From Mycobacterium sp. Z3061 (lineage in GTDB: Bacteria; Actinomycetota; Actinomycetes; Mycobacteriales; Mycobacteriaceae), in the NCBI RefSeq assembly GCF_031583025.1, contig NZ_CP134062.1:3286001-3350000 (forward strand): a stretch of 64,000 bases of DNA, written 5' to 3'. Below the pieces are notes generated by a model. That model saw only the letters and a program-made list of their open reading frames with translations. It had not been told where the DNA came from and made no database searches. The position numbers and the translations under genes were made by a program. Every line of letters starts with the position of its first letter. Positions within the stretch are counted from its first letter, which is position 1. Below, one piece after another: positions 4,649 to 39,056 of this stretch.

Positions 4649-4741
4649 CCTGCGGCGGCCCGGTATGCGCATCAACACCGCACATCTGACCGATCCGGCG
4701 CCGGCGCGACTGAATGCGGCTGATCGTCAGCCGATTTCGGC

Positions 4742-4795
4742 GCAAGAATTCCGCAAGAAGTTCGCGAACTTGTGGCAAGCGTTGTGGCGCATCGT
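4742..4795 (+). promoter_or_regulatory. SARP-type activator site: four 11-bp-spaced heptamers plus -10-like hexamer
   Basis: Heptamers GCAAGAA (4742-4748), GCAAGAA (4753-4759), GCGAACT (4764-4770) and GCAAGCG (4775-4781) are spaced at exactly 11 bp, one helical turn. The last is separated by 8 bp from CATCGT (4790-4795), which keeps the A and final T of the mycobacterial NANNNT -10. Direct heptamers at 11-bp spacing with the 3' copy 8 bp from the -10 is the published arrangement for SARP regulators such as ActII-ORF4 and DnrI. The 60 bp at 4741-4800 align without gaps to 30602-30661 (47/60 identical), upstream of the kinase gene. It should drive the mbtH-NRPS operon. Confidence 0.6.
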
Positions 4796-5043
4796 ATGTG
4801 GTGACCGACGGTTGCCTGGCGATCTTGGGATCGGTAGCAACCCGATGGGCATGCAATGTGACCCAACCGGCCCCGGTCTCGACAACGTGGGAGGCAGTGG
4901 CCGGTAGGGGCTGGGAAAGCCGGGCCGGCCCGAGCTGAATATCGCAGCTCGTTCCGGCCGCGGATTGAAGGTTGCTGGTGCTATGTTGACGACGCTGTCG
5001 GTCTTGTCCTTGAATAATTACTGCTGGGTGGTTAGGGGAACGA
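4796..5043 (+). promoter_or_regulatory. Long 5' leader before the MbtH-like gene
   Basis: About 245 bp lie between the putative start site and the mbtH-like GTG. No convincing gene is present. A weak second promoter candidate is TTGACG (4986-4991) with TTGAAT (5010-5015) at 18-bp spacing. AGGGGA at 5034-5039 serves as the ribosome binding site for 5044. A small frame starting GTG 4801 encodes 45 residues, with nothing to support it as a gene. Confidence 0.3.
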
Positions 5044-5268
5044 GTGAGTGCCAACCCATTCGACGATGACAATGGTCGCTTCTTCGTACTCGTCAACGAT
5101 GAGGAGCAGCACAGCCTTTGGCCGGAATTCGCCGACGTGCCCGCCGGCTGGCGCGTGGTGTACGGCTTGGCCGACCGGGCCGCTTGTCTTGAATACATCG
5201 AGCAGAACTGGCCCGATATACGACCGAAGAGTCTGCGCGAAAGGCTTGCGCAGGACGCGGGCCGCTGA
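5044..5268 (+). CDS. MbtH-family NRPS adenylation chaperone
   Basis: This 74-residue protein has all the marks of an MbtH-like protein: [30 protein letters not shown] and [14 protein letters not shown]. MbtH-like proteins bind the N-terminal subdomain of NRPS adenylation domains and are needed for their folding or activity. The partner here is presumably the NRPS that starts 30 bp downstream. The GTG start has AGGGGA about 4 nt upstream. It is the first gene of the mbtH-NRPS-ABC-MMPL operon. Confidence 0.95.
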
Positions 5269-26200: not shown

Positions 26201-26631
26201 GCGCCCAGAGCGGTTCCACGGTGACCGGGTTCCAGACCTACCACGTCATGAATCCACACGACGACGGCATCGGACTGGATGAGTACGTCGACTGGCTGGT
26301 CGAGGCCGGCTACCCGCTCCGGCGCATCACCGACTTCGGCGAGTGGGTGCGCCAATTCGAGGCAACCCTGCACACCTTGCCGGAGCGGCAGCGCCGCCAC
26401 TCCGTGCTGCCGATGTTGGCGGCCCGCAATTCCGCTGCGGTGCAGCCACTCCCGCCGACGAACGGGTCCTACGCGCCCACCGATCGATTCCGCGCCGCGG
26501 TGCAGGAGTCCAAGATCGGTCCCGACAAGGACAATCCGGATATTCCGCACATCTCCCCGCCGGTCATCGTCAAGTACGTGACCGATCTGCAGTTGCTCGG
26601 ACTGCTCGGTGGAGGAACACCCCAATGCTGA
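5299..26631 (+). CDS. Five-module nonribosomal peptide synthetase with N-methylation, two epimerases and terminal reductase
   Basis: A 7110-residue protein in one unbroken frame from ATG 5299. Domain order (approximate residues): T0 15-90; C1 100-540, A1 555-1070, T1 1088-1164; C2 1175-1635, A2 1636-2125, T2 2140-2215, E2 2228-2680; C3 2690-3110, A3 3111-4018 with a methyltransferase at about 3588-3845, T3 4028-4101, E3 4115-4575; C4 4579-4998, A4 5001-5521, T4 5533-5604; C5 5613-6065, A5 6073-6564, T5 6576-6648; reductase 6694-7110. All six carrier serines (LGGDS), all C/E HHxxxDG motifs and all five A-domain YTSGTTG and GKLD lysines are intact, so the enzyme looks functional. C3 and C4 follow E domains, as expected for D-specific condensation. 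The product should be a reduced, partly D, N-methylated pentapeptide. It overlaps the ABC exporter gene by 7 bp. It is not one I recognise; it differs from the four-module GPL synthetases and from exochelin and mycobactin enzymes. Confidence 0.95.
5341..5568 (+). other. NRPS domain: N-terminal carrier domain T0 without its own adenylation domain
   Basis: Residues about 15-90, with Ser48 in LGGDSL as the phosphopantetheine site. The protein begins here, so the carrier must be loaded in trans, by a separate adenylation or acyl-AMP ligase, or stay empty. T0 plus C1 strongly resembles T1 plus C2 within the same protein, which suggests an internal duplication that left the carrier in front. Confidence 0.85.
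5596..8793 (+). other. NRPS module 1: C(LCL)-A(Thr-like)-T
   Basis: C1 has HHIAGDGWS (His233-His234) and the LSYAQSRLW...SPVYN start of LCL-type condensation domains. Pocket residues of A1, aligned by eye to GrsA, read D-F-W-C-I-G-L-V-H-K. This differs from the known Thr code DFWNIGMVHK at two positions, so Thr or a close relative is predicted. The T1 serine is residue 1124. Confidence 0.7.
8821..13356 (+). other. NRPS module 2: C(LCL)-A-T-E
   Basis: C2 has HHIAGDGWS (from His1309). The A2 pocket reads D-V-W-T-V-G-A-V-Y-K. I cannot assign this code; the W-T-V and A-V positions resemble Phe/Tyr-type codes but 236 and 331 do not. The T2 serine is 2178. E2 starts at VPTPIMRW and carries [13 protein letters not shown] (His2344), EGHGRH and NYLGR, the epimerase signatures, so this residue should be delivered as D. 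Confidence 0.75.
13365..19020 (+). other. NRPS module 3: C(DCL)-A-nMT-T-E
   Basis: C3 begins [16 protein letters not shown], typical of DCL domains after an epimerase, with HHIVVDGWS from His2815. A3 is interrupted after its A8 motif by a SAM methyltransferase (LLEIGAGSG near 3655, [11 protein letters not shown]), the normal place for N-methylating insertions. The A3 pocket reads D-V-C-S-L-A-L-V-H-K; Cys replaces the usual Trp at position 239 and the code is not one I know. The T3 serine is 4064. E3 has [13 protein letters not shown] (His4237), EGHGRYE and NYLGR. Confidence 0.75.
19033..22110 (+). other. NRPS module 4: C(DCL)-A(Thr-like)-T
   Basis: C4 begins [17 protein letters not shown] with HHIVLDGWS from His4709, DCL type, matching the preceding epimerase. 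The A4 pocket reads D-F-W-S-V-G-L-V-H-K, one change from the Thr code variant DFWSVGMVHK, so Thr is predicted. The T4 serine is 5566. There is no epimerase. Confidence 0.7.
22135..25240 (+). other. NRPS module 5: C(LCL)-A(possibly basic residue)-T
   Basis: C5 has HHIAGDGWS from His5751 and [16 protein letters not shown] type. The A5 pocket reads D-V-W-D-V-G-A-V-D-K. Two added acidic residues (278 and 331) and an 8/10 match to the Arg code DVADVGAIDK suggest Arg or another basic residue. The A8 motif is GSRVELGE rather than GYRIELGE. The T5 serine is 6611. Confidence 0.55.
25380..26631 (+). other. NRPS terminal thioester reductase (R) domain
   Basis: Residues about 6694-7110 form an SDR-type thioester reductase. 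They carry the NADPH-binding TGATGFVG and the Tyr-x3-Lys pair YGNSK (Tyr6875, Lys6879). It releases the peptide as an aldehyde or, after a second reduction, an alcohol; the sequence does not tell which. No thioesterase is present. Confidence 0.85.
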
Positions 26632-28340
26632 GTCTGCTGCGCCCGCACTGGGTCTCGATGACCATGAGTATGTCGCTGCTCAGTGCCGCGACAGTGCTCA
26701 TCCTCTGGCAACCGCTGCTGGTCGGCCGGCTCGTCGACCGGGCGACGACGGGTGCGCTGAACCTGGGCGTCGCCCTCGCGGTGCTCGCTGTCCTGATGTG
26801 CCAGCTCGCGCTGGAAGGTGTGGGGCACTTCCAGCTGGACCGCACCGGTGAAAGGATCGTGCTGCGGCTGCGCGCCGAGTTCACCGAACATGTCGTACGC
26901 CTGCCGATCGGACTGCTCGACCGGGCCCGCACCGGCGACCTGCTGGCCCGCGGAACGAGCGATGCCGGGCAGTTGCGTGACATGCCCCGCGCCGTGGGCG
27001 ACATCGCGTTCGGAATGCTGACGCTGCTGGGCGCGGGAGCATTCATGCTGTCGATCGATGCGCTCACCTTGTGTGTGGTGGTAGCGGTCATGACGGTTGC
27101 GTTCGGTGCCGGTAGCCCGTTCCTGTCCCGGATCCAGCGTGACTCACTGAATCGCCAAGTGGCCCTGAGTGACTACACGGCCGGCTTGGACCGGGCGCTG
27201 GGCGCGGCCCGCACGGTCAAGCTGTTCGGGGCCGAAGGCCGCGAAGTGGGATTCATCGGTCTCAGCGCGGCAGCCGCCTACCGGGCCGGGGTGCGGGTGG
27301 CGTCGTCCACGGCCATCAACATCCTGGCGATCCGGCTGGGCGTCACGGTCTCGTTCCTGACCATCATGGTCATCGACGGACGCCGCGTCGCCAACGGAGG
27401 ACTGTCCGTGGGTCACTTCGTCAGCCTCTTCGCTTTCGCCATGTACGCGGTCTTTCCGATCACGGCCGGCTTCGCCGCACTCGCCACCTTCCGCACCGCC
27501 GCGGGTGCCTATGAGCACCTCGTCGCCACCCTGCGCGAGCTTCCAGAGGGCGCCGCACCGGTGGGTGCGGAGGTCGCCGCGCCGCCGAGCCCGATGCCGC
27601 ACCAGGCCGGCGCGCCACTGGTCGAGTTCGATCACGTGTCGTTCGCCTATGGTTCCGGCGCAGCGGTGCTCGACGATGTCTCTTTCACACTTCACGGAGA
27701 TCAGATCACCGCGCTGATCGGCCCGTCCGGCGCGGGAAAGTCGACGATCCTCGCGCTGTTGTGCCGCTTTCACGATCCGGACGCCGGGACGATCCGGTGG
27801 GAAGGCCAGGACATCCGCACCATGACGCTGCGGGACCTGCGCGGTCGGCTCGGGCTGTTGGAGCAGGACGCGCCTGTGCTGCACGGCAGCATTCGTGACA
27901 ACCTGCTGATCGCCGACCCCGACGCCACCGACGACGACCTGTGGCGCGTCCTGCGACAAGCAAACATCGCCGACGAGATCGCCTGTCTGCCAAAACAACT
28001 CGACAGCCCCGTGCTGGAGCGGGGCCGCAGCCTGTCCGGTGGGCAGCGCCAGCGACTGGCCCTGGCCAGGGCTTTCCTGTCCCGGTCGCAGCTCATCCTG
28101 ATGGACGAACCGACATCACATCTCGACCGCGCCAACGAGTACGACGTCATGGCCAATCTTCTGCACGCGCGCGGGCGGCGCAGCATTCTCGTGGTGGCGC
28201 ACCGCTTGTCCACCGTCACCAACGCCGGGCAGATCCTCGTTCTGCAGGGCGGCCGGATCCAGGCCACCGGAACCCATACCGAGCTGATGGGCACGCCGAT
28301 CTACCGCGAATTGATCGAACACGAACTCGTGCGGCACTAG
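26625..28340 (+). CDS. ABC exporter, fused permease and ATPase
   Basis: A 571-residue half-transporter. The N-terminal part (residues about 1-330) is an ABC exporter membrane domain with several hydrophobic segments. The C-terminal ATPase has Walker A GPSGAGKS (366-373), signature LSGGQRQ (from 470), Walker [10 protein letters not shown] (Asp494, Glu495) and an H-loop VVAHRLS. It probably works as a homodimer exporting the NRPS product across the plasma membrane. Start ATG 26625 is chosen because it overlaps the NRPS stop and has GGAGGA about 9 nt upstream. The frame is open further upstream, but that is NRPS coding shadow. Confidence 0.92.
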
Positions 28341-28361: not shown

Positions 28362-30590
28362 GTGCTGTACCGGATCAGTCTGCTGGCCATCGCGTTCCCG
28401 CGACGGGTCATCTCTGTGGCACTACTGGTGCTGGTCGGCGCCGCGATCTTCGGTGTCCCAGTGGTCAGGCAACTTTCGGGCGGGGGCGGGCTGGACCCCG
28501 GCGCGGAATCATCCAAAGCCACCGAGCTGCTGTCCCGCAAATTCGACCAGGGTGATACGACCCTGGTGATCGCCGTGACCTCGCCGGACGGCGCGAACTC
28601 GGCTCGGGCCAGGGCGGTCGGCACCGATCTCGTTCGGCGGCTGAAGAATTCGCCGGATGTTCGCGAAGTGCAGTCGGGCTGGACCGCACCGCCGGAATCG
28701 GCGCCGGTATTCTTCAGCAAGGACGCGAAGACGGGCCTGATCGTGGCCGCCATCGGCGGCGGCGAGAACAGAGCCCAGCAGAACGCCATGCGACTGTCCG
28801 ACGAACTCGTGCACGACCGCGACGGGGTCACGGTGCGTGCCGGCGGCGACGCCGCTGTCTCCTGGCAGGTGAACGCCCAGACCCAAAAAGACCTGTTCCT
28901 AATGGAATCCGTCGCGTTGCCGCTGAGCTTTGTCGTGCTGGTCTGGGTGTTCGGCGGACTGGTCGCGGCGGCGCTGCCGGTGGCGGTCGGTGTCTTCGCG
29001 ATCCTGGGCTCACTCGCCTGCCTGCGCACCATCGCACTGTTCACCAACGTGTCGATTTTCGCTTTGAACCTTTCGGTCGCGATGGGCATGGCCCTGGCGG
29101 TGGACTACACCCTGCTGATCCTCAGCCGGTTCCGGGACGAGTTGGCGGCGGGCCAGACCCGGGAGGATGCGCTGGTCCGCACCATGGCCACCGCCGGGCG
29201 CACCGTGCTGTTCTCGGCGATGACGGTGGCGTTGTCGATGTCGACGATGGTGCTCTTCCCGCCGTACTTCCTGAAATCCTTCGCCTATGCCGGATCTGCG
29301 GTGGTGGCGTTTGCCGCGGCGGCAGCGATCATCGTGACGCCGGCGGCGATCGTGTTGCTGGACCGTCGTCTGGATGCCGGAGATGTGCGCCCGTTGCTGC
29401 GCCGGGTCTTCTGGGGCAGCGCCGGCCGAAGCCGATCCCGGCAGCAGCGAACCTGGTATGACTGGGCCAAGTCGGTGATGCGCCACGCGCTGCCCATCGG
29501 CCTCGCTGTCGTCGCTGTGCTCTTGCTGCTCGGCTCACCGTTTCACCGCGCGCGGTGGGGCTTCGCGGACGACCGGATCCTGCCCACCTCAGCCTCGGCC
29601 CGCCAGGTGGGAGACTTGTTGCGCAACGACTTCCCGAACCGGGGAGTGCCCGACATCACCGTCGTGTTGCCGGACGCTGCCAATCTCAGCGCAGCCGAAC
29701 TCGATTCGTATGCCGCCGCGCTGTCGCAGGTGCCCGAGGTGAAGTGGGTCGCCTGGCTGGGCGGCACGTTCGTCGACGGCAGACGGTTCGGTCCACCCTC
29801 GGCGCCCTACGGGATCAGGGACGGCAGCGCCTTCCTGACCGTGGGCACCGCCGCGCCGCTGTACACCAGCGCCTCAACCACCCAGCTGGACCGGCTGCAC
29901 GCCGTCCCCACTCCGAAGGGCAGACCCGCCTGGCTCACCGGTGTGGCACAGAGTAATCGGGACAGTGTGCACGCCATCGCATCCCGGCTGCCGGTGGTGC
30001 TGGCGCTGATCGCCGCGATCACCCTGGTGCTGGTATTCCTGTTAACCGGAAGCGCGGTGTTGCCCGTCAAAGCCCTGTTGATGAACACGCTGTCGCTGAC
30101 CGCCGCGTTCGGTGCCCTGGTGTGGGTATTCCAGGAGGGCCATCTGGGCGGGCTGGGCACGGCGGCCACCGGCACCCTGGGTGTCGAGTTGCCAGTTCTC
30201 TTGTTCTGCATCGCTTTTGGCCTGTCCATGGACTACGAAGTGTTCCTGATATCGAGGATCCGGGAGTACTGGCTGGCATCGGATCAGGGGCCGGGCGCCA
30301 ACGATGAGAGCGTCGCGCTCGGGCTGGCGCACACAGCGCGGGTGATCACCGCCGCGGCGCTGATCATGACGATCTCTTTTTCCGCCCTGATGGCCGCGCA
30401 GGTGTCGTTCATGCGGCTGTTCGGATTCGGCTTGACCGTGGCGGTGGTTGCCGACGCCACTCTGGTCCGCATGTTGCTGGTGCCGGCGTTCATGCATGTG
30501 ATGGGCCGGTTCAACTGGTGGGCACCGAAGCCCATGGTCCGCTTGCACGAGCGGGTCGGGCTGAGCGAGGAACCCCCAACCACTCGTTGA
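28362..30590 (+). CDS. MMPL/RND-family transporter
   Basis: This 742-residue membrane protein has the duplicated RND plan: a membrane segment near residue 12-32, an extracytoplasmic loop (about 35-180), a multi-helix block, a second loop (about 400-540) and a second multi-helix block. Proton-relay Asp-Tyr pairs appear in LAVDYTLL (Asp248-Tyr249) and LSMDYEVFL (Asp624-Tyr625), as in mycobacterial MmpL proteins. MmpLs export lipids, lipopeptides and siderophores. Here it likely acts with the ABC exporter on the NRPS product. GTG 28362 follows the ABC stop by 21 bp with GGGAGA as ribosome site. There is no MmpS partner. It is shorter than the large MmpLs (over 900 residues). Confidence 0.9.
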   Translation: MLYRISLLAIAFPRRVISVALLVLVGAAIFGVPVVRQLSGGGGLDPGAESSKATELLSRKFDQGDTTLVIAVTSPDGANSARARAVGTDLVRRLKNSPDVREVQSGWTAPPESAPVFFSKDAKTGLIVAAIGGGENRAQQNAMRLSDELVHDRDGVTVRAGGDAAVSWQVNAQTQKDLFLMESVALPLSFVVLVWVFGGLVAAALPVAVGVFAILGSLACLRTIALFTNVSIFALNLSVAMGMALAVDYTLLILSRFRDELAAGQTREDALVRTMATAGRTVLFSAMTVALSMSTMVLFPPYFLKSFAYAGSAVVAFAAAAAIIVTPAAIVLLDRRLDAGDVRPLLRRVFWGSAGRSRSRQQRTWYDWAKSVMRHALPIGLAVVAVLLLLGSPFHRARWGFADDRILPTSASARQVGDLLRNDFPNRGVPDITVVLPDAANLSAAELDSYAAALSQVPEVKWVAWLGGTFVDGRRFGPPSAPYGIRDGSAFLTVGTAAPLYTSASTTQLDRLHAVPTPKGRPAWLTGVAQSNRDSVHAIASRLPVVLALIAAITLVLVFLLTGSAVLPVKALLMNTLSLTAAFGALVWVFQEGHLGGLGTAATGTLGVELPVLLFCIAFGLSMDYEVFLISRIREYWLASDQGPGANDESVALGLAHTARVITAAALIMTISFSALMAAQVSFMRLFGFGLTVAVVADATLVRMLLVPAFMHVMGRFNWWAPKPMVRLHERVGLSEEPPTTR

Positions 30591-30602
30591 GGCGGTTGCG
30601 CC

Positions 30603-30656
30603 GCAAGAATTTCGCAAGAATTGCGACAAGATGCGGCAAGCGTTGCGGGGCAGGGT
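30603..30656 (+). promoter_or_regulatory. Second SARP-type activator site, upstream of the Ser/Thr kinase
   Basis: Heptamers GCAAGAA (30603-30609), GCAAGAA (30614-30620), GACAAGA (30625-30631) and GCAAGCG (30636-30642) are at 11-bp spacing. They are followed by 8 bp and CAGGGT (30651-30656), a NANNNT -10 candidate. The layout is identical to the site at 4742-4795. The two share 47 of 60 bases without gaps, including mismatched spacers, pointing to one regulator for the NRPS operon and the kinase. Confidence 0.6.
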
Positions 30657-30718
30657 ATGTATGCCGGCCCATCGGGCGGCCCCGGCAGGGTTGACCGCAA
30701 CGCAGAAGGAAAGACACC

Positions 30719-32647
30719 GTGGACACCACTCACCCGCTGACGCTGACGACCGGACAGCTGTTCGCCGGATTCCGGATCATCCGGGTGCTCGGCGCCGGGG
30801 GAATGGGCACCGTATACCTGGCGGCGCACCCGCGACTGCCGCGCGAGAATGCCCTGAAAGTGCTGCCGGCGCAGTGGAGCGCTGACCCGGTGTACCGCGC
30901 GCGTTTCGAGCGCGAAGCCGAGTTGGCCGCGAATCTCTCGCACCCGCACATCGTCCAGGTCCACGATCGCGGTGAGCACGACGGTCAGTTCTGGCTCTCG
31001 ATGGACTACGTGCCCGGGACGGACGCGGCCCGCCTGCTGCGCGAAAGATTCTCCGGCGGAATGCCGTTGGACGAGGTGGTGAAAATCATCGGCGCGGTCG
31101 CGTCGGCGCTGGACCACGCCCACCAGCGGGGCCTGCTGCACCGGGACGTCAAACCTGCCAACATCCTGCTCAAGGATGACGGCCCCCAACAGCGAGACGT
31201 TTTCCTCGCCGACTTCGGCATCGCGCGGCGCATCGACGACGTGGGCGGACTCACCTCCACGAACATGACAGTAGGGACGGTGAACTACTCCGCCCCCGAG
31301 CAGCTTCGCGGTGACCCCGTCGACGCGCGCGCGGATCAGTACGCGCTGGCCTGCACCGCGTTTCATCTGCTGACCGGCGCACCACCCTTCGACGACGCCA
31401 ATTCCGCGGTGGTGATCGGTCGGCATGTCGGCGCGCCACCGCCCTCGATCGGGGCGCTGCGTCCCGAGTTGGCCGGGCTGGACTGGGTTTTCGCCACCGC
31501 GATGGCGAAGGACCCGGCCCACCGATTCGGCACTTGCCGGGAATTCGCCGACCATCTGGCCGGGCAACCGGCCCCGGCGTTCGCCTATGCCGGCGAGATT
31601 CCGGAAGGCTCGGTCCTGCAGTACCCGACGCACCCCTCGCTCAGCGCGACGCTGCCGGCTCTGCCACGAGTCACCGACGGGCGCGCCCGACGCACCCGGG
31701 TGCTCGTCGCCGCCCTGTTCTGCATCGCACTGCTTATCGGCGGCGGCATCATCGCGGGGGAGAAACTGATTTCCCACTACCGCTCGGGCGCGGCCGCCAA
31801 GACCCCGGTTGCCCTGCCTACCACCACCACTCCCGCACCCAATACGGGGCCGTTCACCGGGTCGTTTCAGGTGGAGTACGGCGTGGTGACCGGCGTGGAC
31901 GGCCAGCGTGCTGAGAAGCCGGTGCCGCCGACCAGTGAAACATGGTCGGTGCGATCGGTATGCGGTACCGCCGGATGCGTGGCAACCGCGTCGCGGTACG
32001 GCGGTGAGACCATGCAGGTACCGGAGATCGTGTTCGACCAGGTGGATGGGACGTGGGTGGCGGTCAGCGTCGGCTCTACCAACTGCGGTGAAGCCGTAGG
32101 TGAAGTGTGGGAGACGTTTACGCTGCGGGCCCGGCCGGATGGCACGCTGGCCGGTGAAGCGACCCAGACGATGGCCAAGGGCTGCGCGAACAAGCGGACG
32201 GTGACCTTCACCCGCACCGGAGACACCGACGTGAACAGCCTGCCCGATCCGGCCGCACTGCCCCCGCGGAAGACGTCACCGGCGGCGGCGCTGCACGGCC
32301 AGTACCACCAGTTCTCGATCCAGCCGAACGGATTCAAAGATCAGAACGATCTGGCTGCCCGGACCGACTGCCTGCGCACCGGTGATCGGTGCGTGACCCT
32401 CATGCACACCGCGCCGGCCACCGCCATGGTGTTGGTTTACGCCGACGGAACCTGGAACTATGACCGGGAATTCGACGGCACTTGTGGGCGGGGCCGTGCC
32501 ACGCATGTGAGAATCGTTGTGCCCTTTGCCCTTCCGCAGCCGCCACAAGACCCGATCACGACGCTGAGCGGAAATGGCCACGAGGACCTCACGGGCGGTT
32601 GCCCCAGTACCGACGTCCAGGTGACCTTCACCCGCACCGGCGACTGA
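30719..32647 (+). CDS. Transmembrane Ser/Thr protein kinase with a duplicated Cys-containing extracellular domain
   Basis: A 642-residue PknF-like kinase. The intracellular catalytic domain (about 15-280) has the glycine loop GAGGMG, Lys47, HRDVKPAN (Asp143), DFG (Asp165) and APEQ. A single membrane helix lies at about 326-346. The outside part has two related units, each ending VTFTRTGD, with paired cysteines (CGTAGC, TNCGE, KGCANK; then [18 protein letters not shown]). It probably senses an external ligand or wall state. GTG 30719 has AGAAGGAAAG about 5 nt upstream. The gene follows MMPL by 128 bp, which hold the SARP-like site, so it can be transcribed separately. Coregulation with the NRPS suggests it senses the product or modifies the regulator (compare AfsK-AfsR, PknH-EmbR); that is inference. 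Confidence 0.88.
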
Positions 32648-36878: not shown

Positions 36879-39056
36879 TTGAGCGGAAACGCGGTCCGCC
36901 TGCAGGCGATCAACAATGTCGAGGCATATGTACCCCCGGCGATCAGTTTTGTACCGGGTGAAGCTCCGGGCGAGATCTTCGGCTCCAATGTCTTCACCAA
37001 GGCCGAGATGCAGGCGCGGCTGCCGAAATCGGTCTTCAAGTCGATCGTGGCCACCATCGAGAAGGGTGCTCCGCTCGACCCCGCCGTGGCCGACACGGTC
37101 GCGGTGGCGATGAAGGACTGGGCGCTGGAGAAGGGCGCGACCCACTACGCGCACGTCTTCTACCCGATGACCGGCCTGACCGCGGAGAAGCACGACAGTT
37201 TCCTGGAGCCGGTCTCCGACGGCGCGACGCTGGCCGAGTTCGCCGGCAAGACGCTCATCCAGGGCGAGCCCGACGCGTCCAGCTTCCCGTCGGGCGGACT
37301 GCGCAGCACGTTCGAGGCGCGCGGCTACACCGGTTGGGACGTCACCAGCCCGGCCTACATCCTGGAAAACCCGAACGGCAACACGCTCTGCATCCCCACC
37401 GTTTTCGTCTCCATGACCGGCGAGGCGCTGGACTACAAGACGCCGCTGCTGCGCAGCCAGCAGGCCATGGGCATCCACGCCGAACGCATCCTCAAACTGT
37501 TCGGGCACCAGGACCTGAACAAGGTCGTGGCTTTCTGTGGTCCGGAGCAGGAGTACTTCCTGGTCGACCGGCACTTCTTCCTGGCGCGGCCCGACCTGAT
37601 CAACGCCGGGCGGACCGTGTTCGGCGCCAAGCCGCCCAAAGGCCAGGAGTTCGACGACCACTACTTCGGTGCGGTGCCGGAGCGGGTCCTGGGCTTCATG
37701 ATGGACACCGAGCGGGAGCTGTTCAAACTCGGCATTCCGGCCAAGACCCGGCACAACGAGGTGGCCCCGGGTCAGTTCGAGGTGGCCCCGATGTTCGAAC
37801 GGGGCAACATCGCCTCCGACCATCAGCAGCTGCTGATGACGATCTTCAAGACGATTGCCAAGAAGCACGGCATGGAATGCCTGTTCCACGAGAAGCCGTT
37901 CGCCGGCGTCAACGGCTCTGGCAAGCATGTCAACTTCTCGCTGGGCAACTCCGAGCTCGGTTCGCTGCTGGTTCCGGGCGACACCCCGCATGAGAACGCA
38001 CAGTTCCTGGTGTTCTGCGCCGCCGTGATCCGCGCCGTGCACAAGTTCGCTGGGCTGCTTCGAGTTTCGGTCGCCTCGGCCACCAACGATCACCGGCTGG
38101 GTGCCAACGAGGCGCCCCCCGCGATCATCTCGATCTTCCTCGGTGAACAGCTCGCCGACGTGTTCGAGCAGATCGCCAAGGGCGCGGCAACGTCGTCAAA
38201 GGGCAAGGGCACCATGATCATCGGTGTCGACACGCTGCCGCCGCTACCCACCGACGCCGGCGACCGCAACCGCACCAGCCCGTTCGCCTTCACCGGCAAC
38301 CGATTCGAGTTCCGCGCACCCGGGTCGGGACAGACAGTGGCGGTGCCGATGATCGTACTGAACACCATCATGGCCGACTCGCTCGACTACATGGCCACGA
38401 TCCTCGAGAAGGCCGTCGAAGACGGCGAGGACTTCGACGCCGCGGTGCAGAAATTGCTCACCGATGTCATCACCGAGCACGGCGCGGTGGTGTTCAACGG
38501 TGACGGGTATTCCGAGAACTGGCAGATCGAGGCGGCCGAGCGCGGATTACCCAACCTCAAAACAACATTGGACGCTATCCCGGAGTTGATCAAGCCGGAA
38601 GCGGTGGAGATTTTCGAAAAGTATGGAGTCTTCAACGAGCGTGAGTTGCACAGCCGCTACGAGGTGCGCTTGGAGCAGTACGCGCTGACCATCGCGGTGG
38701 AGGCGAAGCTGGCGCTGGAGATGGGCACGACGGTCATTCTGCCCGCGGCCCTGCGCTACCAGACGGAGCTCGCCCAGAACGTCGCCACCTTGAAGGCAGC
38801 CGGTGTCGAACCCAACACCGCTGCTTTGCAGGCGGTTTCGGCTCCGCTCGCGGACCTGACCTCTGCGCTGGCGACGTTGAAGGCGGCGTTGTCGGACCAC
38901 TCGGCGAGCACCGCGCTGGAGGAGGCCACCCACGCCCAGAAGGAGCTGCTGCCGGCGATGGAGGCGGTGCGGGCGGCGACTGACGCACTGGAAGGCATTG
39001 TGGCAGATGACCTTTGGCCGTTGCCCACTTACCAGGAGATGCTCTACATCCTCTGA
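36879..39056 (+). CDS. Type III glutamine synthetase (GlnN-type)
   Basis: About 725 residues, the long class (GSI enzymes are about 470). It has the GSIII N-terminal region, the catalytic core with [12 protein letters not shown] (metal Glu), [24 protein letters not shown] and [13 protein letters not shown], and the long C-terminal extension. It forms glutamine from glutamate, ammonia and ATP. It adds to the usual type I enzymes of mycobacteria and lacks a type I Tyr-adenylylation site context. The start TTG 36879 is preferred because AGGAA lies about 5 nt before it; ATG 36864 is in frame but has no ribosome site. Confidence 0.93.

Follow-up and report, generated by a model that had tools for sequence, protein, structure and literature searches.

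The stretch of DNA analysed here (hereafter the window) comprises 64,000 nucleotides of the Mycobacterium sp. Z3061 genome (G000:C1:3286001-3350000; a single contig of 6.79 Mb), which in an rpoB tree is sister to G006, with G120 branching next. The window holds two copies of a 60-bp promoter element built of direct repeats, a putative operator of the kind recognized by the Streptomyces antibiotic regulatory proteins (SARPs). The repeats of the first copy occupy positions 4742-4781 on the plus strand (heptamers at 4742, 4753, 4764 and 4775) and are followed, 8 bp past the last of them, by a -10 hexamer of the form NANNNT (CATCGT, 4790-4795), with a predicted start at around 4802. This copy precedes a run of plus-strand genes that begins with one for an MbtH-like protein (5044-5268; PF03621; start codon assigned by a home-made gene caller) and continues with genes for a nonribosomal peptide synthetase (NRPS) of 7110 amino acids (5299-26631), an ATP-binding cassette (ABC) exporter (26625-28340; PF00664 and PF00005) and an MmpL transporter (28362-30590; PF03176). 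The second copy, on the same strand (repeats at 30603-30642, with heptamers at 30603, 30614, 30625 and 30636; -10 hexamer CAGGGT at 30651-30656, likewise 8 bp past the last repeat; predicted start around 30663), precedes a gene for a Ser/Thr kinase of 642 amino acids (30719-32647, plus strand; PF00069). A preliminary description of this DNA placed the hexamers at the same distance and called the kinase gene distant from the NRPS genes. The hexamers are indeed there, but the kinase gene is not remote, because its repeats start 12 bp past the stop codon of mmpL, the last gene in the NRPS-ABC-MmpL run, i.e. the two are neighbours in one cluster.

The two copies (4741-4800 and 30602-30661) share 47 of 60 bases in an ungapped alignment, exactly as first reported, and the similarity drops beyond either end. 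The number of pairs matching this well that would be expected in the window from base composition is 2.8e-6. In a self-match scan of the window, which considered direct pairs only and counted one pair per offset, 58 offsets above 200 bp reached at least 44/60; the best 25 of these (at least 50/60) all fall within the NRPS gene and correspond to its internal module repeats. A matrix derived from 31 sites in genomes that do not belong to the gordonae clade gives scores of 66.3 to the kinase site and 64.4 to the NRPS site, with the next-best position on either strand of the window reaching only -7.8; this demonstrates specificity rather than independence, because those 31 sites had been found via similarity to the window. 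A chance match of the two stretches is ruled out by the composition-based expectation together with the leave-clade-out matrix. With a profile built from 36 sites (R1), the E-values are 2.6e-14 for the NRPS site and 1.1e-14 for the kinase site, both of which are themselves part of the model.

The consensus of 43 different sites consists of four 11-bp units, GCAAGAATTTC GCAAGAATTTC GCGAAGATCCG GCAAGCG, followed by 8 bp and the hexamer CAACCT. The preliminary description spoke of four GCAAGAA-type heptamers in the window; their 11-bp spacing holds, but in both copies the third one is degenerate (GCGAACT and GCGACAA) and the fourth reads GCAAGCG. Conservation across the 43 sites follows the 11-bp units and ends just past the -10 hexamer. 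The search pattern for the sites stopped at the fourth GCAAG and did not include this hexamer, the second and sixth places of which (12 and 16 bases past the end of the pattern) are A in 41/43 and T in 42/43 sites, respectively. At the place of a -35 box, 17 bp 5' of the -10 hexamer, the matrix consensus is AAGATC, which is no -35 consensus and represents just the third unit. An ATG lies 6-7 bases past the hexamer in nine of the 43 sites, an arrangement that fits putative leaderless starts; leaderless transcripts are common in mycobacteria.

Published SARP operators (PMC10936776) consist of heptamers repeated at intervals of 11 or 22 bp, the 3'-most of which lies 8 bp from the -10 element, and the earlier suggestion that the window's element shares this geometry proved correct: four units (including the degenerate third) recur at 11 bp, the last at a fixed distance from NANNNT, and they extend over a -35 region that lacks a -35 consensus. 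The element thus resembles the afs box of Streptomyces coelicolor, likewise composed of 11-bp direct repeats that span the -35 region and end 8 bp from the -10, and the protein that binds the afs box, AfsR, combines an OmpR-type winged helix with a BTAD domain, as does the regulator proposed below. Unlike the afs box, which has two repeats, the mycobacterial element has four, the distal two being best conserved; its repeat sequence, GCAAGAATTTC, is also different, and the C-terminal domain of the proposed regulator is FHA as opposed to the NOD-TPR region of AfsR. Judged from these sequence features, the interpretation of the element as a SARP-type operator is well supported. Such operators are already known in Streptomyces, but the literature search revealed no sequence-defined regulon of a mycobacterial FHA-containing SARP. 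The literature covered, from which most subscription journals were absent, also yielded no operator sequence for the EmbR family, and the accessible portions of the publications on EmbR itself yielded no DNA motif for it.

The element recurs in related species, in keeping with a search proposed in the preliminary description. Among 148 Mycobacterium genomes, ten encode orthologues of the kinase (at least 63% identity over the full length; the copy in G017 is truncated at the end of its contig), and all ten have the element upstream, with the pattern ending 58-79 bp before the start codon; six of these ten genomes also have it upstream of MbtH-NRPS genes, the six being counted among the sites found rather than among NRPS genes. 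The gene lying 5' of the kinase site is mmpL in six genomes (81-100% identical to that of the window) and a gene for a type III glutamine synthetase (726 amino acids) in four interjectum-like genomes; that the kinase site has been kept despite the differing upstream gene is informative. A type III glutamine synthetase gene also occurs in the window, at 36879-39056, with 92-95% identity to the ones directly before the kinase site in those four genomes. In G074, where the kinase domain alone was matched (67%), there is no site. A pattern scan of a larger genome collection retrieved at least 80 loci, 26 of those listed being mycobacterial.

Which protein might read the element is suggested by its distribution. 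The source genome encodes four BTAD proteins, two of which are of the EmbR type (381-382 amino acids; winged helix (Trans_reg_C), BTAD and FHA domains). One of them, L037, which we call EmbR proper, adjoins two Ser/Thr kinase genes; the other, the paralogue L038 (G000:C1:6638903-6640048; 382 amino acids), is located among genes that we take, from homology, to be the emb arabinosyltransferase genes. In the 148 genomes, a regulator of the L038 type (at least 69% identity) is encoded by 19 and R1 sites (E ≤ 1e-6) are present in 18, all of them among the 19, so that sites occur in 0/129 genomes without the regulator. A set of 396 genomes including these 148 (regulator at least 68% identical with E ≤ 1e-140, a cut-off that leaves short fragments uncounted; sites at E ≤ 1e-5) gave 54 genomes with the regulator, 53 with sites and 52 with both, sites being found in one of 342 genomes without the regulator; the 248 fresh genomes contributed 35, 35 and 34, respectively. 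The co-occurrence is thus near-perfect, and it is accompanied by physical linkage, as 27 of the 52 genomes have a same-strand site 16-2194 bp 3' of the regulator gene. We therefore consider it likely, on this comparative sequence evidence, that the 60-bp element is a SARP-type operator-promoter and that its regulator would most probably be the L038-type EmbR paralogue and not EmbR proper.

The misfits are instructive. In G148, the filtered search overlooked a site 13 bp past the regulator gene; this version of the element (L366:5345) contains five GCAAGAA-type units. G030 encodes regulator residues 120-382 only, without the DNA-binding domain, on a 3.3-kb contig (L143, G030:C109), the similarity of which to the emb locus spans 822 bases. 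The encoded fragment is 95% identical to the protein of the source genome, though G030 belongs to another clade; it may be a remnant of a transfer or, alternatively, contamination. G216 has sites, and its L038-type regulator is represented by a C-terminal fragment (57% identity, residues 297-380) beside a weak site. G045, assembled as a single contig and nested in a site-bearing rpoB clade, has neither the regulator nor sites. A looser pattern search allowing up to 3 mismatches gave matches in 39/148 genomes; 3-mismatch matches were discarded because a control with the reversed pattern rang nearly as often (33/148), with the exception of the one in G143, which was retained since it lies beside the regulator gene and which, being included in R1, scores there by construction. 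Matches at L043 and L055 (3 mismatches) and in G062, G091 (two), G100 and G120:C104 (2 mismatches) were set aside, none of them being recognized by R1 at E ≤ 0.01.

The L038 protein has the Trans_reg_C, BTAD and FHA domains of the EmbR family in a single chain of about 380 residues, like EmbR of Mycobacterium tuberculosis (Rv1267c, PDB 2FEZ), and in an alignment with 2FEZ it retains the FHA motifs GR, SxxH and NG (as defined in PMC4238996). It is not, however, an orthologue of Rv1267c: L037 matches 2FEZ with 721 bits and L038 with 489 bits, the two proteins are 60% identical to each other, and in a tree of 61 EmbR-type sequences the L038 type forms a single clade (support 100/99) separate from 2FEZ, its gene residing inside the emb cluster rather than next to a PknH-like kinase. 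EmbR2 of M. tuberculosis CDC1551 is likewise an EmbR paralogue with an FHA domain, but it differs in being reported as an inhibitor of PknH that is itself unphosphorylated (PMC4601284).

A related but distinct element is found at EmbR-proper loci, with the consensus TCACTCCAAGAATTCGTAGAGATAACGAAAAGGCC, 8 bp, GAACCT. It precedes one or two genes that stand immediately ahead of embR and code for proteins of 229-242 amino acids (one gene tested is Peptidase_C39-like), with about 40-75 bp between the hexamer and the start codon. A profile of this element (R2) was built from 23 sites at such loci, matches at E ≤ 1e-8 being regarded as strong. EmbR proper, delimited by a chosen cut-off of at least 72% identity and including the split gene of G031, is present in 38 of the 148 genomes; G005, excluded from this count with 71%, has no R2 match. 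All 27 genomes with strong R2 sites are among the 38, the remaining 11 having none, and some of the 27 hold further R2 sites away from embR; weak matches (E from 2e-5 to 5e-5) occur in G039 and G081, both without EmbR proper at 72%. In the source genome, L037:3449-3503 and L037:4365-4419 (G000:C1:5102448 and 5103364), each with three 11-bp units 8 bp from GAACCT or CAACCT and located 5' of the genes that directly precede embR, are candidate operators of EmbR proper. The genes embCAB are a reported target of EmbR; in profile scans, the emb stretch of the source genome contained no R1 or R2 site. An intermediate element is present in G105 (L304:14408-14464, minus strand; weak R1 match, E=3.8e-5), about 43 bp 5' of a 110-amino-acid gene near EmbR proper, and similar elements precede genes for 95-114 amino acids in L108, L109, L351, L360, L361 and L362.

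Several points weigh against assigning the element to the L038-type regulator. Related species are not independent, so the Fisher values overstate the association; about four changes of site label are required on a tree of 30 selected genomes. The sites were seeded from the window, and any operators of this protein with a very dissimilar sequence would have escaped. Three genomes without the regulator (G062, G091 and G100) do have pattern hits with 2 mismatches, none of which is scored by R1 at E ≤ 0.01. A distance of 3.3 Mb separates the regulator gene from the window, and the 14-kb stretch that holds this gene in the source genome has no site. The partnership with the kinase, discussed below, is a candidate one that rests on analogy. 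Finally, in AfsR the residues T88 and R92 contact bases (PMC10936776); they align without gaps to positions 77 and 81 of the EmbR types, where the L038 type and EmbR proper share the majority residue, and these two positions thus do not explain why the paralogues would have different operators. In the neighbourhood, positions 68, 70, 76 and 84 are fixed differently and position 69 nearly so (18 L038-type versus 30 EmbR-proper sequences), and the paralogues could thus read related yet distinct repeats.

These shared residues, the 60% identity and the presence of EmbR proper in all 18 site-bearing genomes of the 148 (as a split gene in G031) would be compatible with EmbR proper, or another BTAD protein of the genome, binding the element. 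We nevertheless consider this improbable: among the 20 genomes of this set with EmbR proper but without the paralogue, R1 sites occur in none and the different R2 element in 12, every genome with strong R2 sites has EmbR proper, and the other two BTAD proteins of the source genome are large (973 and 2395 amino acids) with no match to FHA. It is still harder to credit that the element is bound by a response regulator of the OmpR/PhoB type, such as PhoP, which recognizes 7-bp direct repeats every 11 bp; the DNA-binding fold is the same and the repeat spacing similar, but regulators of this type are presumably present genus-wide, whereas genomes without the EmbR paralogue almost never have a site, and sites often adjoin the gene of the paralogue. 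Equally slim are the chances of a clade-specific sigma factor element or a mobile repeat with an incidental SARP geometry. Copies do precede unrelated genes, and the site of one gene family (B, see below), which in some species is close to embR, is far from that gene in the source genome; conservation in 11-bp units that stops just past the -10, however, speaks against both variants, and the -35 place has no fixed motif besides the third unit.

The first genes behind the sites encode the kinase, small proteins (families A and C, and the cysteine-rich family B), MbtH-NRPS proteins, an acyltransferase-domain protein and a further family whose members have 242-245 amino acids; secretion of the small proteins was judged from their N-termini by eye. 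The source genome has four sites at E<1e-9, i.e. those of the NRPS and kinase genes, a third with 23 bp between the end of the pattern and the ATG of a family A gene (G000:C1:1162316), and a fourth before a family B gene (5729001) that is followed by a Rieske oxygenase gene. Family B genes of other species stand behind sites near embR, so the gene seems to have retained its site despite its moved place. The family B copy at L042:4091-4429 encodes a small cysteine-rich protein without a Pfam match, with relatives near embR in other species. The NRPS of the window, on which the literature searched gave nothing, comprises a leading carrier domain, seven condensation domains, five adenylation domains, one methyltransferase domain and a terminal NAD_binding_4 reductase domain (domain scan, counted in two halves). 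This domain set suggests a reduced lipopeptide (alcohol or aldehyde) as the product, which would be exported by the ABC and MmpL proteins. The kinase has one hydrophobic segment at about residues 326-350 that is probably membrane-spanning (from hydropathy), and the closest structure to its kinase domain is PDB 7NAA (367.6 bits), which we take to be PknF. A weak site (R1 E=0.004) just 5' of the predicted start of a 643-amino-acid gene was noted at L367:4118 (G113:C86:80118), on a contig that also encodes another EmbR paralogue as well as three relatives of the window's kinase.

If the regulator is indeed the L038-type paralogue, its protomers may bind the four 11-bp repeats side by side, from about -60 to -21 relative to the predicted start, with the downstream pair of repeats covering the -35 region in the manner of the AfsR dimer. 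The bound regulator would assist RNA polymerase at a promoter in which a -10 (NANNNT) is present without a -35 consensus, and the targets switched on would include the mbtH-NRPS-ABC-MmpL run, the kinase resembling PknF and two small proteins whose N-termini look like secretion signals. In M. tuberculosis, EmbR is reported to undergo FHA-dependent phosphorylation by the Ser/Thr kinase PknH (reviewed in PMC4601284). The FHA domain of the L038-type regulator may read phosphothreonine, which makes the kinase encoded at 30719-32647 a candidate upstream partner. The regulator would then raise the level of a kinase that modifies the regulator, and such a feedback loop is plausible by analogy.

Findings on what EmbR-type regulators target are contradictory: according to a 2022 study, embCAB was unchanged in the mutant and binding to hspX was not detectable, and the earlier gel-shift work cited there disagrees (PMC9239209). 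Our analysis yields one candidate operator, itself conserved, for the L038-type paralogue and, incidentally, another for EmbR proper. A broader view, which we advance tentatively and with some doubt about its holding in full, is that each mycobacterial FHA-containing SARP paralogue may have its own promoter code of 11-bp repeats, that the paralogue from the emb cluster may control a kinase by which it is possibly controlled, tying lipopeptide export to envelope signalling, and that the conserved target of EmbR proper may be the gene for a secreted protein just 5' of embR and not embCAB. The operator proposed for the L038-type paralogue would give a little-understood family of regulators a testable DNA target, and one member of this family would be linked to both a Ser/Thr kinase and an NRPS-MmpL cluster.
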